Source: Iphinoe sp. HA4291-MV1
Lineage (GTDB): Bacteria > Cyanobacteriota > Cyanobacteriia > Cyanobacteriales > Nostocaceae
Reading direction: 5' to 3'
Length of the DNA stretch: 64,000 nt
Assembly (NCBI GenBank): GCA_019359415.1
Contig: JAHHHH010000001.1
Span: forward strand, 242,841 to 306,840
The notes beneath the pieces were generated by a model. The model searched no databases. It was not told the DNA's origin and saw only the letters and a list, made by a program, of their open reading frames with translations. Within the stretch, counting starts at the first letter, position 1. The number at the start of each line of letters is the position of its first letter. This document shows, piece by piece, positions 3,032-13,510 of this stretch. Made by a program: the position numbers and the translations under genes.

Positions 3032-3928
3032 ATGACAAGAATCCCGTTCGATCAATTTGCTAAGCAATTTTTGGATGAGTTTTTAACCCCTTTAGGTAAA
3101 GTCGAAAAGAGCTTGGAGGTTCTTGGCGAATCTAAACTAGTTGACATTTACTTTGCACCTTCTGCTCAACCAACCGTAAATCCAAAAATTCTTGGTTTAT
3201 TAGGAAGACTTGCTGCAACTCCCTGTCTATTTGAACCATTTCGCAATCCACCTACAGCAACTGAAGTCCGTGACTGTATACTTAAGTTATTTTGGGTTCA
3301 CTCAGACTTGCAGCGCCAAGCTCACCGAGAGCAACGTCGAATTTTAGAAGCAGAATTACCCCGATTATGGATTCTTGCGTCTTCAGCTTCAGCTAGCCTC
3401 CTCAAGAATTTTGCCGCAACACCGAACGATACTTGGCTTCCTGGTATTTATTTGATGGGCGAGTCTTTCAAAAGTGCAATTATTTGTATTAATCAGTTAC
3501 CTCAAACTCAAGAAACCCTCTGGCTAAGACTTTTAGGTAAAGGAACGACTCAGGAACAGGCGATTACACAATTGCTAGATTTTCCCAGAGACGAGCCAAG
3601 TCGTACCAAAGCATTACGATTACTGGCAAACTGGAAGATTACACTAGAAACAAGCAAAGAAATTGACAAAGACGAGCAAGGATTAATTATGATGCTATCA
3701 CAAGCTTACTTGGAGTGGGAACGAGAAACAGAACGTCGAGGTATTCAAACAGAGCGTACAACCACTATTGAAAATCTTCTCAAAGCTCGCTTTGGCTCTC
3801 TTGACGAAGAGTTAACTGGCATCATTCCCATTTTAGTGGAATTCTCTATTGAGAAATACACTTCATTTCTCCTACAGCTACCTCAATTGTCTCGTGAAGA
3901 ATTATTGACTCGGTTTGGGAATAAGTAG
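3032..3928 (+). CDS. Rpn/DUF4351-like conserved cyanobacterial protein
   Basis: The 298-residue protein belongs to a group found in many copies in cyanobacterial genomes and loosely related to Rpn recombination-promoting nucleases. The N-terminal ~200 residues include a segment with acidic residues and strands (ESKLVDIYF near residue 29; ILEAELPRLWILAS near residue 104) that could form a PD-(D/E)XK-like core. The C-terminal ~60 residues (ERTTTIENLLKARFG, then EKYTSFLLQLPQLSREELLTRF) match the helical tail usual in these proteins. The gene starts 18 bases after the DUF4926 gene, so it may belong to the same transcript. Nuclease activity is not proven, because I cannot identify all catalytic residues with certainty. 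Confidence 0.65.
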   Translation: MTRIPFDQFAKQFLDEFLTPLGKVEKSLEVLGESKLVDIYFAPSAQPTVNPKILGLLGRLAATPCLFEPFRNPPTATEVRDCILKLFWVHSDLQRQAHREQRRILEAELPRLWILASSASASLLKNFAATPNDTWLPGIYLMGESFKSAIICINQLPQTQETLWLRLLGKGTTQEQAITQLLDFPRDEPSRTKALRLLANWKITLETSKEIDKDEQGLIMMLSQAYLEWERETERRGIQTERTTTIENLLKARFGSLDEELTGIIPILVEFSIEKYTSFLLQLPQLSREELLTRFGNK

Positions 3929-3956
3929 GCAGGTGTCGCCCCTTTGGGGAATTCAA

Positions 3957-3999
3957 AATTCAAAATGGACTGCGTCCCGCTGCGCTAACAAAATTCAAA
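3957..3999 (+). repeat. 43-bp dispersed repeat, intergenic copy (second copy inside a helicase gene at 12137-12179)
   Basis: Bases 3957-3999 and 12137-12179 are identical over 43 positions. The unit has AATTCAAAAT-type heptad ends around a GC-rich core (GGACTGCGTCCCGCTGCGC). This copy lies between the Rpn-like gene and the IsrB element. Confidence 0.85.
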
Positions 4000-4029
4000 A
4001 TTGTTCGCGCAGCGTCATAAAACCTCGTG

Positions 4030-5335
4030 GGATGTGTGGAAACTCAGTCGCTTCAGCGCTAAGAGGAAACACGACTCAGGCAGTTTTAACTGCCGTGGTT
4101 CTCCATGAGCCGTAAGATTTGAAACTGCAATCTATTGGTATTGCGTTTTGAGTTAATCGTTTACCAGTCTCTAAACTGTGTAAACTAATCGTTTTCCTAT
4201 TCGGGTCTTTTTTAGTAGGTGATTCCTGCCAGCCACCCACATAACAAAAGCCGAATTTAGGATGCTTGATCAGCGAGCCGCGCTTAAGTCCCGCGCTAAT
4301 CGTTCCACCGTATCTAGATCTAATATGTCCAGCAGAATGTTGTAATCGGTGGAGTTGACGACGATGAAATTCTAATGGAACAATCTCAACCAACTTTGTA
4401 TTGTCCGGTGCGTTGTGCCCACCGACAAACCAATTAGCTAATACCCAAGAATCAACACAATGAGCGTCAAACTTGCTAGATAACTTGTTCTTAGATTTTT
4501 TCAAACCTAAGTTTTGACGCATCTCGCAAGTATCGTTACCCGTTTTAGTTTCTAAACTGGCAATTTGTTCTAGTTCTGAGTAGAACCATTTCTTGCCAAC
4601 CTCTAGAGGACTAAACATTACATTCCATTTCTTTGCACTTTTCCAGGTTTTAGCTTTAATATCCTCGACTACAAAAGTTGAGATTGGAAACATCAAGGTA
4701 AGCCACTTACAAATACGCAATTTCCATTGCCATCTCGCTTTAGTCGATGGTGGTAATTTTTGTTTATTTACAAGTCGATTTTTGCGATTCTGACGACATG
4801 GAGTATTACGGAATCGTCTAGCGCGTCGCATATTTCGACGAACTTCTACATGGTCTTTTACCCAATCAACGGCATGAGTCTGGATGTTTAAATAAGTTGC
4901 AAAGCGTGATTTCACGGTATACCCTTCACGCTTACTTCCTGGATCAATTCCTACTGCTACTGGTTGAGTGTTTCTGTTAGATGGCTCTTGATTTAACCGA
5001 ACACAAAAAACTCCTTTTTTAAAGAATGGTGTAGCCTTACCTGATTTAATCCAACGCTTGGCTCTGCTAGAGGTCGTTGGCATCAGGGGACGGTTGTTTT
5101 GGTCAACTACTGGAACAAACATTTACGATAAGTCCTATTGCTAGGTGTATATATCCCTTCGCTACTGACTGCCACAGAGGTTAAAAACTAGGGAGGCATT
5201 CTTAACGTGCTTTGGGCTACCACGCCCAGACAATTCAGTTTAATTAGCTAGACACTTGTTTAACTTGATGAGCGGAAGTGGTAAATTTCCTTCTTGCAAG
5301 CCCAGTGGCTTTAGTCCTGGGTTAGTGACTAAATA
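4030..5335 (-). mobile_element. IsrB-type (IS200/IS605 superfamily) non-autonomous element; ends approximate
   Basis: The element comprises an HNH-less IscB relative plus ~210 bases of structured DNA upstream of it. No TnpA transposase is present, so it would need one in trans. Hairpins lie near both ends. One is GGCAGTT-TT-AACTGCC at 4079-4094, overlapping the 3' end of the gene. The other is CCCAG/CTGGG at 5301-5321, on the 5' side. Just beyond 5340 the sequence becomes a kinase-gene relic, which places the outer boundary at about 5330-5343. The boundary near 4030 is less certain. Confidence 0.6.
4076..5122 (-). CDS. isrB: IsrB-like RNA-guided nickase candidate (RRXRR domain, IscB relative without HNH)
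   Basis: The 348 residues follow the IscB/IsrB order. A PLMP domain (RPLMPT at residues 11-16) comes first, then RuvC-I with the catalytic Asp in GIDPGSK (D60). An arginine-rich bridge helix follows (RRNMRRARRFRN, residues 95-106), then RuvC-II with VVED (E153) and RuvC-III with FDAHCVDS (H221, D224). Only ~65 residues separate RuvC-II from RuvC-III, so the HNH domain of IscB is absent. The length and architecture match IsrB, which is known to be an omega-RNA-guided DNA nickase. The remaining ~115 residues would be the RNA- and target-recognition part. All RuvC acidic residues are present, so the protein is probably active. The last codons lie in a terminal hairpin of the element. In older annotation it would be called an RRXRR-domain protein. 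Confidence 0.85.
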   Translation of the reverse strand: MFVPVVDQNNRPLMPTTSSRAKRWIKSGKATPFFKKGVFCVRLNQEPSNRNTQPVAVGIDPGSKREGYTVKSRFATYLNIQTHAVDWVKDHVEVRRNMRRARRFRNTPCRQNRKNRLVNKQKLPPSTKARWQWKLRICKWLTLMFPISTFVVEDIKAKTWKSAKKWNVMFSPLEVGKKWFYSELEQIASLETKTGNDTCEMRQNLGLKKSKNKLSSKFDAHCVDSWVLANWFVGGHNAPDNTKLVEIVPLEFHRRQLHRLQHSAGHIRSRYGGTISAGLKRGSLIKHPKFGFCYVGGWQESPTKKDPNRKTISLHSLETGKRLTQNAIPIDCSFKSYGSWRTTAVKTA

Positions 5336-5340
5336 TTAAG
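5123..5340 (-). ncRNA. Putative omega RNA (guide RNA scaffold) of the IsrB element
   Basis: In IscB and IsrB elements the omega RNA is encoded directly upstream of the nuclease gene, and its 5' end reads in from flanking DNA as the guide. Here the ~218 bases upstream of the gene (reading leftwards) contain no ORF but do hold hairpins: CCCAG/CTGGG at 5301-5321 and TGGGC/GCCCA at 5213-5228. The position and approximate length fit, while the exact ends and fold are inferred. The guide would be encoded by the kinase relic just outside 5340. Confidence 0.5.
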
Positions 5341-5343
5341 ATA

Positions 5344-5457
5344 AGATTTGTTACACTGTTCATAGCTGTGGTGATTGGAGCGGTTATCTTTACTCGCAGT
5401 CTTAATATACAACTACCACAAAATGAATCACAAAAGAAAGAGATACCTGCATTTTAA
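5344..5457 (+). pseudogene. Relic of the 3' end of a second Ser/Thr kinase gene
   Basis: Translation gives a transmembrane segment with TLFIAVVIGAVIFTRSLNIQLP and ends QKKEIPAF followed by TAA. The kinase at 1275-2288 ends with LLLAVVIGVVFLTRSLDIRLP and QKKEIPAF. Similarity continues ~30 bases past the stop codon, including a HIP1 site. No kinase domain precedes it, because the IsrB element abuts instead. It is the leftover of a tandem kinase duplication. Confidence 0.85.
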
Positions 5458-5550
5458 CTGAATCGTTCTTATTGGCGATCGCTCTTAGTACTGCATTTCA
5501 TAAATCCGTATTGTTCTTGAACTCTTTCTCCTCCAATTCCCCTGCGCGCT

Positions 5551-5781
5551 TGAGTGTTTGATACTTGTCGTTGAGTGTTTGATACTCGTGGGAGAGCGTT
5601 TAATACTCGCGTTTGAGTGTTTGATATTTGTCGTTGAGTGTTTAATACTCGTGGGAGAGCGTTTAATACTCGCGTTTGAGTGTTTGATACTTGTCGTTGA
5701 GTGTTTGATACTCGTGGGAGAGCGTTTAATACTCGCGGCTGAGTGTTTGATACTCATAGCTGAGTGTTTGATACTCATCCA
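5551..5781 (+). repeat. Tandem array of eleven 21-bp units with 63-bp higher-order period
   Basis: Eleven consecutive 21-base units of the form TGAGTGTTTGATACTCGTGGG fill 231 bases. Three unit variants (ending TTGTCGT, CTCGTGGG and CTCGCGTT) recur in order for three rounds, giving a 63-bp period, and then two deviating units follow. Each unit is nearly self-complementary (GAGTGT...ATACTC), so single strands can form a row of small hairpins. Both strands are open across the array (heptapeptides such as SIKHSTT or LILVVEC), which is expected because 21 is a multiple of three. One isolated related unit lies at 5950-5970. I see no promoter or ribosome binding site that would make it a gene. Confidence 0.95.
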
Positions 5782-6090
5782 CGAGCAATATGGTTTCGCA
5801 ATTGACTTTCGTAACTGAGATCTTGCACCATTCTCAAAACCTTTCTCCTAAGGGAGACGCTGCGCGAACAGGTGGGCACTGCTCACAACGTAAAAATAGG
5901 AGTTGAGCGCGAACGATAAGCAGTGCCCACCCTACAAAAATTGCTCGCGTTTGAGTGTTTGATACTCAAAGGACGAGTGCCAAGACTTGCAATTACTAGT
6001 GTTTTGCGTCTCTCAAAAAAATTACCAAAAGTTTTCCCAAAAGTACTTGCCAAATTCTTCATCTTAGTCTAAGATGATTAATCGTGACAT

Positions 6091-10225: not shown

Positions 10226-13200
10226 ATGAAAGTTATTCATGGTACATGGATACCCAACGCAGTGGCTGACTTTATTCAACCTGGGTCTTTTTATCTGTGG
10301 GTAGAAACCCCTGAACTCAAAGAACGTCGTAATAAAAATCAACAAATTCACCCCAGACATCTAACACAAGGTGAATTAGTAGCCTTTTTACTCCAAGAGT
10401 TAGGAATCAAAGAACCAGCAGCTACTTTAAACGAACGTATATCTCCTAAATATTTTGCTCTACCAACTGCTAACAATCAACCCATCCCCTCACCAGAATT
10501 AATTAAGTATCTGGAAATAGATCTTCCTGAAGAATATAAAGGGTTTCAATACTGGCAGGTAGATTGCTATGAGGCTATAGTGTCTGTCAAAACTGATTAT
10601 TCTCAAGCCTCAAAAGCTATCAATGTTATCAAACTCCTCAACGAAATCCACTTTTTAGCATTATACACCTCAGGTGACATTCAACTTGGATCAGACCTGC
10701 TGTTTTGGTATCACTATACTCAAGCCTTTAAACAATTCATTCTCAAAGACCAATACATTCCAGGACTGAAATACCGTCAGTTAGAAGCTACTGTTACTAA
10801 AACGAATAAAAAAGGTAAGACAAAAACGGGAGCAACGCAGCCATTTGAAATCTATGCCTCTTGGGAAATTATTTCTGAACAATATGAATTGAATCTGAAG
10901 AAATACATCGAATATATGCCGCTAATCTGTGTGGCGGGTTCAGTCGCACCGACTCATCTGGTAGAGTTCTTTGATAAAGAAAAACTTTTACGTCACTTCA
11001 GTGAGTCTCTTCTTAATGATATAGTTACCCACACACCCTCAACGGCTGCTTTTGACAAACAAATTGCTGATTCCCTTATTCACCATTGCTTACGTCCAAA
11101 CAGTGACAACCCACAAACAACGGATGCTGCTTTAGAACAATACAAGCAATGGTTAACATGGAAAACCAAAATCGCTCGTACCCAAAGCGACTCCCCTTTT
11201 CATCTCTGCTTTCAGTTGTACTCTCCTCCTTCAGAGGCGATCGACAACTGGCAGATTCAATTCCTTGTCGCCAGCAAACAAGATCCCTCCCTGAAACTAG
11301 CGCTGGCTGACTACTGGACAATGAGTCAAAAAACCAAAACTGGGGTACACAAGCAATTTGGTAAGAGCTTTGAAACGGATTTGCTTCTTAATCTGGGCTA
11401 CGCAGCACGTATGTATCCTCAGTTATGGCGGGGATTAGAAACACAACACCCCACCGGATTGCAACTCACCTTAGAAGAGGCTTTTGACTTCCTCAAAGAA
11501 AGTGCTTGGGTGCTGGAAGATGCTGGTTTTAAGGTCATTGTACCTGCTTGGTATACCCCCGCAGGTCGCCGTCGGGCAAAAATTCGCCTCAAAGCCTCTG
11601 CTAGCAAACTATCCGCAACGAAAAGCGAGACAAAAAGCTATTTCAGCTTTGATTCGCTGGTGGAGTATCAATATGAACTGGCAATTGGTGACAAAGCAGT
11701 TACTCCACAAGAATGGCAACAACTTATTAATTCTAAAGCTCCCTTAGTCCATTTTCGCGGTCAGTGGATGGAACTAGACCGAGACAAAATGCAGCAGTTC
11801 CTAGAATTTTGGCAGTCACACGCTGATGAAAAATCAGAAATGACAATGCTAGAGTTCCTGCAACGTAATGCTGAAGTTGGCGAAGAGTGGGAATTTGAAT
11901 ATGACCAATTCTTGTCTGAGACAATGGCGAAGTTGCAAGACAAAAGTCGGTTGGAACCCATTTCTGAACTGTCACAATTGCAAGGAAATCTCCGCGAGTA
12001 CCAAAAGCGTGGCGTATCATGGTTGCAATACCTGGAAAGATTAGGATTAAATGGCTGTCTGGCAGATGATATGGGCTTGGGCAAGTCGGTGCAAGTCATT
12101 GCTAGACTTGTGCAGGAGAGAGATGAGGGAGAAAGTAATTCAAAATGGACTGCGTCCCGCTGCGCTAACAAAATTCAAAGTTCAAAATTAGGAGTATCTT
12201 CCTCATCTTTCCCATCCTCTGTATCGCCTACACTATTAATTGCCCCAACTTCAGTTGTGGGGAACTGGCAGAAAGAAATTGCCAAATTTGCACCCCATCT
12301 TAAAACGATGGTTCATCACGGTAGCAGCCGTCTTCAGCAGGAGGCAGATTTTAAAGCAGCGAGTCTACAGCATGATGTGGTGATTACCTCTTTTACCTTA
12401 GCTCGCAAAGATGAAAAGCTACTGAGTAGCATGAAATGGCAGCGGGTGGTACTGGATGAAGCACAAAATATTAAAAATCCCAAAGCTGCACAGACAAAGG
12501 CAGTTTTGAAATTATCAGCAAAACACCGACTTGCTTTGACGGGAACTCCTGTAGAAAATCGTTTGCTAGATTTGTGGTCAATTTTTAACTTTCTTAACCC
12601 AGGTTACTTGGGGAAAGAAGCACAATTTCGTAAGTCTTTTGAGATTCCAATTCAAAAAGAGAATGATAAATTAAAATCAACAACCCTCAAGAAGTTAGTT
12701 GAACCATTGATTTTACGGCGTGTCAAAACTGACCAATCTATTATCAATGATTTACCTGATAAAATTGAACAAAAACTCTACACGAATTTAACAAAAGAAC
12801 AAGCATCACTCTACGAAGTTGTTGTCAAGGATGTGGAGGAAAAACTAAAAACAGCAGAGGGAATTCAACGCAAAGGATTAATCCTCTCTACGTTGATGAA
12901 ATTGAAGCAGATTTGCAACCACCCAGCACAATTCTTACAAGATGGTAGTGAATTTTTACCAGAACGTTCTCATAAATTAAGTCGTTTAGCAGAGATGATA
13001 GAGGAAGCATTATCAGAAGGAGAAAGCCTCCTCATTTTTAGTCAATTCACTGAGATTTGCGAAAGTCTGGAGAAATATCTGAAACACACTCTGCATTGCA
13101 ATACATACTATTTACATGGAGGTACTAGCCGCGAAAGACGTGAGAAAATGATTGCAGAATTCCAAGAGCCAGAAACAGAATCATCTATTTTTATACTTTC

Positions 13201-13510
13201 TCTGAAAGCGGGTGGTGTTGGTATTACCCTCACGAAAGCTAACCATGTTTTCCACTTTGATCGTTGGTGGAACCCAGCAGTAGAAAATCAAGCAACAGAC
13301 CGCGCTTTTCGTATTGGTCAAAAGAAGAATGTTTTTGTTCATAAATTTGTTGCGATCGGTACTCTAGAAGAGAGAATTGACCAAATGATTGAAGATAAGA
13401 AAAAACTCTCTGCTGCTGTTGTTGGTAGTGATGAATCGTGGTTGACAGAACTGGACAATGATGCATTTAAGGAACTTATTGCACTAAACAGAAGCGCGAT
13501 TTTGGAGTAA
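10226..13510 (+). CDS. SNF2-family DEAD/DEAH-box helicase with an in-frame repeat insertion
   Basis: The 1094-residue protein has an N-terminal ~550-residue helicase-associated region and then the SNF2 ATPase. This shows DDMGLGKS (Walker A, about residues 613-620), TLLIAPTSVVGNW, LDEAQNIKNP (motif II near 742), LTGTPVENR, LSLKAGGVGITL and ATDRAFRIGQ (motif VI near 1025). Between motifs I and Ia, residues ~635-667 (SNSKWTASRCANKIQ...SSSSF) are absent from the family pattern. They are encoded by bases 12137-12179, an exact copy of the intergenic repeat at 3957-3999, and by adjoining AT-rich sequence. The frame is kept, so the protein may still work with a surface loop. The SWIM protein gene follows after three bases, a standard bacterial pair. 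The role is ATP-dependent remodelling of DNA-protein complexes; substrates are unknown. Confidence 0.95.
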   Translation: MKVIHGTWIPNAVADFIQPGSFYLWVETPELKERRNKNQQIHPRHLTQGELVAFLLQELGIKEPAATLNERISPKYFALPTANNQPIPSPELIKYLEIDLPEEYKGFQYWQVDCYEAIVSVKTDYSQASKAINVIKLLNEIHFLALYTSGDIQLGSDLLFWYHYTQAFKQFILKDQYIPGLKYRQLEATVTKTNKKGKTKTGATQPFEIYASWEIISEQYELNLKKYIEYMPLICVAGSVAPTHLVEFFDKEKLLRHFSESLLNDIVTHTPSTAAFDKQIADSLIHHCLRPNSDNPQTTDAALEQYKQWLTWKTKIARTQSDSPFHLCFQLYSPPSEAIDNWQIQFLVASKQDPSLKLALADYWTMSQKTKTGVHKQFGKSFETDLLLNLGYAARMYPQLWRGLETQHPTGLQLTLEEAFDFLKESAWVLEDAGFKVIVPAWYTPAGRRRAKIRLKASASKLSATKSETKSYFSFDSLVEYQYELAIGDKAVTPQEWQQLINSKAPLVHFRGQWMELDRDKMQQFLEFWQSHADEKSEMTMLEFLQRNAEVGEEWEFEYDQFLSETMAKLQDKSRLEPISELSQLQGNLREYQKRGVSWLQYLERLGLNGCLADDMGLGKSVQVIARLVQERDEGESNSKWTASRCANKIQSSKLGVSSSSFPSSVSPTLLIAPTSVVGNWQKEIAKFAPHLKTMVHHGSSRLQQEADFKAASLQHDVVITSFTLARKDEKLLSSMKWQRVVLDEAQNIKNPKAAQTKAVLKLSAKHRLALTGTPVENRLLDLWSIFNFLNPGYLGKEAQFRKSFEIPIQKENDKLKSTTLKKLVEPLILRRVKTDQSIINDLPDKIEQKLYTNLTKEQASLYEVVVKDVEEKLKTAEGIQRKGLILSTLMKLKQICNHPAQFLQDGSEFLPERSHKLSRLAEMIEEALSEGESLLIFSQFTEICESLEKYLKHTLHCNTYYLHGGTSRERREKMIAEFQEPETESSIFILSLKAGGVGITLTKANHVFHFDRWWNPAVENQATDRAFRIGQKKNVFVHKFVAIGTLEERIDQMIEDKKKLSAAVVGSDESWLTELDNDAFKELIALNRSAILE
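12137..12179 (+). repeat. 43-bp dispersed repeat inserted in frame in the SNF2 helicase gene
   Basis: This copy is identical to 3957-3999. It is translated as part of SNSKWTASRCANKIQS between helicase motifs I and Ia. The total insertion, with flanking AT-rich heptads, is about 33 codons and leaves the frame intact. Confidence 0.9.

Follow-up and report, generated by a model that had tools for sequence, protein, structure and literature searches.

The window (the whole 64,000-nt stretch of Iphinoe sp. HA4291-MV1 DNA analysed here) very probably carries an intact IS200/IS605-type element that lacks TnpA, encodes IsrB, is moved in trans, and is retained through nicking of its empty site. At the level of sequence its protein, structured RNA, ends and target-adjacent motif (TAM) are established; there is no transposase inside it, and any present movement would depend on one supplied in trans. 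The features on which this reading rests, all on the minus strand, are:

5330..5349, (-), presumed 20-nt guide, host DNA adjoining the element, by analogy with DtIsrB and from the L042 empty site
4019..5329, (-), IsrB mobile element of 1,311 bp, opening with GTCAC at its left end and closing with GAGGTTTT at its right
5326..5329, (-), GTCA, cleavage tetranucleotide of the left end, not itself a TAM
5297..5300, (-), left transposase guide tetranucleotide CTTG, beside the hairpin CCCAGG..CTGGG; covaries with the left cleavage tetranucleotide
5147..5329, (-), omega RNA (HEARO) scaffold; HEARO match of 32.4 bits, below the cut-off, with covariation
4076..5122, (-), isrB, 348 aa: PLMP, RuvC-I D60, Arg-rich bridge helix, RuvC-II E153, RuvC-III H221/D224, TAM-interacting (TI) domain with R322/Q325
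4043..4063, (-), right-end hairpin
4039..4042, (-), TTTC, transposase guide tetranucleotide of the right end; varies together with TAM bases 1 and 4
4015..4018, (-), ATGA TAM, outside the right end

The IsrB protein and its omega RNA

The isrB reading frame is intact and begins with ATG, and its product is, judged by its sequence, an IsrB without HNH, as the sequence-only reading had proposed, and is predicted to nick the non-target strand under RNA guidance. Its sole Pfam domain is RRXRR (1.3e-34, residues 3-158), with no HNH family among the Pfam matches, which rules out a hidden HNH. Identity as an IscB was rejected because the HNH between RuvC-II and RuvC-III is missing and the NCBIfam IscB match is partial (residues 5-157 only) and, at 94.4 bits, under its cut-off of 175. 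The PLMP, catalytic residues and Arg-rich bridge helix lie where they had been placed: D60, E153, H221 and D224 do not vary across 37 aligned IsrB proteins, which rules out a decayed frame, and neither do the bridge-helix arginines R95, R99, R102, R103 and R105. R322 is likewise invariant and position 325 is Q in 36 of the 37 rows. The interval between RuvC-II and RuvC-III, estimated earlier at about 65 residues, is 67 (E153 to H221). In a broader set of 141 copies and fragments, departures from the four catalytic residues occur in one sequence each, with gaps at these positions in 6 to 11 sequences.

DtIsrB of Desulfovirgula thermocuniculi (8dmb) heads the matches to solved structures, with an E-value of 3.5e-36 for the single sequence and 4.2e-77 for a profile of 37 relatives; the predicted model (mean pLDDT 77.9) likewise returns 8dmb as its top Foldseek match (E 7.9e-24, TM-scores 0.61 and 0.65). 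The alignment to DtIsrB suggested earlier places R322/Q325 opposite R323/Q326, the TAM-reading residues of the TI domain. The two systems share a length of about 350 aa, the PLMP-RuvC-BH-TI plan without HNH, the catalytic residues, this residue pair, an NTGA TAM and a guide at the 5' end of the RNA (PMC9581776, excerpts). They differ in that the window protein is only about 29% identical in the fold alignment and its RNA scaffold is about 183 nt, against 284 nt with a 20-nt guide for DtIsrB (PMC9581776, excerpts). Like the window protein, DsIsrB (Dolichospermum) and CwIsrB (Crocosphaera) are cyanobacterial IsrBs, with nicking assayed and an NTG TAM (PMC9581776, excerpts). The window element encodes a well-formed further IsrB of a protein family already known; one related copy, on a 200,795-bp contig, encodes a protein only 33% identical to the window protein.

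Relatives are common. Matches at E <= 1e-20 occur in 77 of 218 family genomes and 28 of 56 genera, and since DsIsrB of the heterocystous Dolichospermum had also been assayed already (PMC9581776, excerpts), the rarity in heterocystous cyanobacteria suggested earlier was overstated. Full-length relatives of 77-90% identity are present in many genomes, alongside partial and stop-containing copies; a plasmid search gave few relatives (10 records) and a viral search two loci. The counts below come from two sets. The first holds the 141 copies and fragments mentioned above, from Nostocaceae genomes and two IMG/VR contigs, with right ends located in 125. The second derives from a GTDB genome scan that gave at least 421 relatives, of which the best 80, spanning cyanobacteria, Chloroflexota, Poribacteria, Acidithiobacillus, Sulfobacillus and others, were used; removing 15 already in the first set, one at the same site and five lacking a right end left 59, none of which (0/59 loci) has a 1,500-nt stretch in common with the first set at 99% identity.

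Upstream of the gene lies a conserved and structured omega RNA, with an Rfam score below the cut-off. The covariance-model search proposed earlier does find HEARO (RF02033) at 5147-5329 on the minus strand, with an alignment spanning the whole model (1-211), at 32.4 bits (E 2.4e-4 in 2.4 kb), short of the gathering score of 83. The upstream parts of 31 copies were aligned and a consensus structure was drawn with RNAalifold, giving 38 pairs with two-sided changes in 26. Standard pairs fill 95.4% of pair cells against 82.1% after shuffling, pairing falls to 50% or less once the alignment is slid by 1 to 3 columns, and the covariation score of 0.467 was reached by 0 of 500 shuffles; the structure was drawn from the alignment on which it was tested, which favours it, and kinship alone can lift sequences above shuffles without structure, but the margins here are large. 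The earlier assignment of the upstream bases to omega RNA is borne out by the HEARO match and the covarying pairs, though not in its extent, the scaffold being 5147-5329. Neither a missing RuvC residue, nor a hidden HNH, nor a lack of conserved RNA structure, the three outcomes that had been named as telling against the reading, was found. For the presumed guide at 5330-5349, the own genome holds no other site with NTGA at three or fewer mismatches.

Three further loci in the same genome carry HEARO-type RNAs. Whereas the window RNA aligns along the whole model yet reaches only 32.4 bits, L035 (C1:24248) scores 159 bits, on a contig without a match to the window protein, and L036 (C88:9980) scores 140 bits, beside a 526-aa frame weakly matching IsrB. 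L037 (C72:6279-6472) is an element of about 320 bp without isrB, with a HEARO-like RNA of 58.8 bits and a right end like that of the window element, standing before a 170-codon ORF; it might serve as a source of omega RNA in trans.

Element ends, empty sites and transposase pairing

In blastn comparisons with relatives, the block from 5329 to 4015 is common to many copies and has sharp ends, GTCAC on the left and ..ATGA on the right. An empty site fixes where the element stops: L042, a copy that a congener carries before a leuA gene, is missing in all seven other genomes of the genus that were searched (7/7), the window's own included, and at these empty sites the flanks join as guide region followed directly by ATGA. 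ATGA is therefore left outside, and the window element is 4019-5329 rather than the 4030-5340 first proposed. Compared by eye with the seven empty alleles, the 20 nt before the L042 copy are identical in two and differ at 1-3 positions in five. The subterminal hairpins, the guide and cleavage tetranucleotides and, at L042, insertion without target duplication are features of IS200/IS605 elements. The GTCA at the left end is not a TAM, so an inserted copy has no NTGA beside its guide.

For the window copy itself, no orthologous empty site was present among the matches listed for both flanks in the 218 genomes, which were repeats or distant gene matches; its flanks are themselves repeats. A repeat array (GAGTATCAAACACTC..., with a spacing of about 63 nt) occupies 5485-5818, just upstream of the element, and the array-bearing flank finds a match in 142 of 218 family genomes, nearly always through the array part among the matches listed. 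A palindromic repeat (CGCTGCGCG..CGCAGCG) at 3950-4014 abuts the right flank, and many of the right-flank matches listed fall in this repeat (query positions 12-77). The peptide SKWTASRCANKIQ, found in ORF 3915-4115 over the palindromic repeat, recurs at about 12.1-12.3 kb in an ORF (10226-13510) that by eye is helicase-like, probably as an in-frame insertion of the repeat in that gene. Elsewhere in the family, L004 and L005 have identical right flanks; L004 carries 121 nt, beginning with ATGA, between left flank and element, and L005 lacks those 121 nt exactly from that ATGA, perhaps the outcome of a double insertion followed by recombination that yielded a new guide. The right end of L005 also bears an insertion of about 170 nt from a small repeat family with several matches per genome in the eight genomes of the genus that were searched.

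Inspection by eye revealed no Y1 transposase (TnpA) among the ORFs inside the element besides isrB. Elsewhere in the genome there are 14 matches to Y1_Tnp, of which several to about half are fragments; none is on the window's contig (C99). In IS608, cleavage tetranucleotides pair with guide tetranucleotides beside each hairpin (PMC5934647, excerpts). The window element resembles IS608 in its hairpin ends, its CL/GL and CR/GR layout and the same pairing code at both ends; it differs in having no tnpA, in carrying IsrB rather than TnpB, and in encoding its guide RNA at the end opposite to the target motif (PMC5934647, excerpts).

At the right end, guide base 1 complements TAM base 1 and guide base 3 complements TAM base 4. 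Over both sets, the second drawn from the best 80 of at least 421 relatives, and with flanking letters picked after inspection, the expected pattern occurs as TNTC in 126 of 147 ATGA copies, ANTC in 25 of 27 TTGA copies, CNTC in 3 of 4 GTGA copies and TNCC in 5 of 6 ATGG copies, the miss being L311. In the same sets (second: best 80 of at least 421), guides of a pattern expected for a different TAM number three ANTC, one CNTC and two TNCC among ATGA copies, one TNTC each at TTGA and GTGA, and two ANTC at ATGG. An automatic but noisy register resolved 153 of 184 right ends, with 99 and 102 complementary against permutation means of 69 and 94, values reached by 0 and 1 of 5000 permutations. At the left end, 169 of 215 scanned sequences (some copies counted twice, once per collection) were resolved as GTCA/CTTG in 144, TTCA/ATTG in 15, ATCA/TTTG in seven and GTCA/TTTG in three; six of the ATCA/TTTG rows (L116, L117, L118, L127, L129, L131) are probably in the wrong register.

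The fourth TAM base also follows residue 325 of the protein. The first set contains Q/ATGA 94 times, Q/TTGA 26 times, R/ATGG in all three R copies, and H/ATGA and gap/TTGA once each; in the second set (59 of the best 80 of at least 421), Q/ATGA occurs 48 times, T/ATGA and T/GTGA four times each, and Q/ATGG (L311), R/ATGG and K/ATGG once each. Taken together, with the second set again from the best 80 of at least 421, the copies with R or K at 325 all end at ATGG (5/5), and those with Q end at NTGA in 168/169. The nearest relatives of the three first-set R copies are Q/ATGA copies, so these look like separate changes; in the second set (best 80 of at least 421), the copies with R and K come from Poribacteria and Anaerolineae. 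L311, the sole Q325 copy at ATGG (among the best 80 of at least 421), lacks the TNCC guide at its right end, so that this end may have been misplaced or may be decayed. The fourth TAM base is read by Q326 in DtIsrB, where the Q326R variant accepts G too (PMC9581776, excerpts). In the copies aligned here TAM base 4, the residue at the Q325 position and the right-end guide base change together, which suggests that TnpA's choice of target and IsrB's reading of the TAM shift jointly.

Placement before start codons

Many relatives stand exactly at the start of a host gene. In the first set, an ORF of at least 87 codons opens from the TAM ATG at 45 of 96 deduplicated ATG sites, and in the second (59 of the best 80 of at least 421) from ATG or GTG at 44 of 59 sites. 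Within the latter (again from the best 80 of at least 421), GTGA sites have such an ORF in only 1 of 4 cases. Over both sets, the ATGG sites have one in 6/6, of 225 to 468 codons. Control ATGA sites (second-set flanks from the best 80 of at least 421) do so in 11-18% overall: 15/140 for noncoding ATGA in the window (window genes being ORFs of at least 100 codons, so that this control overlooks a start lying behind a GTG or TTG further upstream), 78/552 for ATGA anywhere in the window, and 152/905 and 156/872 for ATGA in second-set flanks (best 80 of at least 421). None of 27 TTGA copies has such an ORF, a weaker control since TTG starts are rare.

Of 19 group-1 copies with such an ORF, the left end was found in 12. 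Each of these has a left flank whose frame closes within 32 codons, and they are therefore not insertions inside genes. Ten downstream proteins were searched against Pfam, and in eight the first domain starts by residue 35 (aminotransferase V and galactokinase 2, CN_hydrolase 6, LeuA 9, NadA 16, CobO 20, ABC 21, lyase 35); the other two, a glycosyltransferase and a P450, were matched over their later part only. The window copy does not stand at a gene start, its TAM ATG opening seven codons within a repeat. A general role of the right end as a ribosome-binding site was not upheld, the association being confined to group 1: an ORF of at least 60 codons follows 17 of 24 Shine-Dalgarno-like right ends against 2 of 10 others in group 1, and 11 of 24 against 21 of 40 in group 2.

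We tentatively propose, while thinking it on balance doubtful, that IsrB elements with RTGR targets seek start codons: the transposase guide, the TAM-reading residue of IsrB and the RNA guide would jointly specify a leader, a start codon and a purine, and the element would insert between that leader and the ATG, take over the leader (in some clades with its own ribosome-binding site), keep the old leader as its RNA guide, be tolerated before housekeeping genes and police the empty allele. The simpler account, to which we give close to an even chance, is survivor bias only, in which insertions inside genes are lost, insertion at an ATG keeps the frame, and no property of the element favours the position. 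The TAM contains ATG, so that no extra mechanism is needed, and Shine-Dalgarno-like right ends track ORFs of at least 60 codons in group 1 and not in group 2. Against this, the noncoding control implies that intergenic survival alone predicts only about 11%, and an element inserted between a leader and its ATG should impair expression if it does not itself stand in for that leader. Weinberg's original description of HEARO in 2009 is said to mention integration before ATGA/GTGA. We did not find start-codon placement in the excerpted text of PMC9581776 or the text of PMC9755519, the founding HEARO and IscB papers lying outside this comparison; the text of PMC13180657 uses 'start codon' once, in an unrelated sense, with nothing on element placement.

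A proposed cycle and its alternatives

Our preferred reading can be put as a rough cycle. A Y1 (HUH) transposase supplied in trans would move the element in single-stranded form and select ATGA through its pairing with the right-end guide tetranucleotide, and the flank left of the element would become the 20-nt guide of the omega RNA. Where the element is excised, or absent from a sister or related chromosome, the guide target and its ATGA TAM would be rejoined, and IsrB-omegaRNA could then nick this empty allele and aid the element's return by recombination; the inserted copy would be spared, since GTCA and not NTGA comes after its guide. As the TAM often consists of a start codon and a purine, many copies in the family rest exactly before a host gene and would become its leader in place of the original one. 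For TnpB it has been proposed that the donor joint is cut and that recombination restores the element, and plasmid interference has been shown (PMC8612924, excerpts); we carry this retention model over to IsrB by analogy, the uncertain step being a nick instead of a break.

That the window copy is instead a transposition-dead remnant, its frame kept by chance or through recent arrival and with no functional RNP, seems improbable. It would fit the lack of a tnpA-like ORF in the element and the partial and stop-containing copies among its relatives, but the frame is intact with its catalytic and TAM residues, both ends and the RNA pairs are intact, and full-length relatives 77-90% identical persist in many genomes. 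TldR is a TnpB derivative that hosts have adopted as an RNA-guided gene regulator. A comparable co-option of IsrB, with the former host leader as guide, would accord with the many relatives placed exactly at start codons, including those of leuA, cobO, nadA, galactokinase and adenylosuccinate-lyase type genes; we consider it very unlikely, as the RuvC residues are conserved, the copies stand at many different genes, and the window copy precedes a 7-codon ORF rather than a gene.

In summary, the window provides a compact and complete IsrB with a short RNA, and across its relatives the natural changes from Q to R or K, with those from ATGA to ATGG, mirror the engineered Q326R of the DtIsrB study (PMC9581776, excerpts). 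If placement at start codons is functional, these elements would be natural leader-replacing insertions, and the reason for which they keep a nickase would become directly testable.
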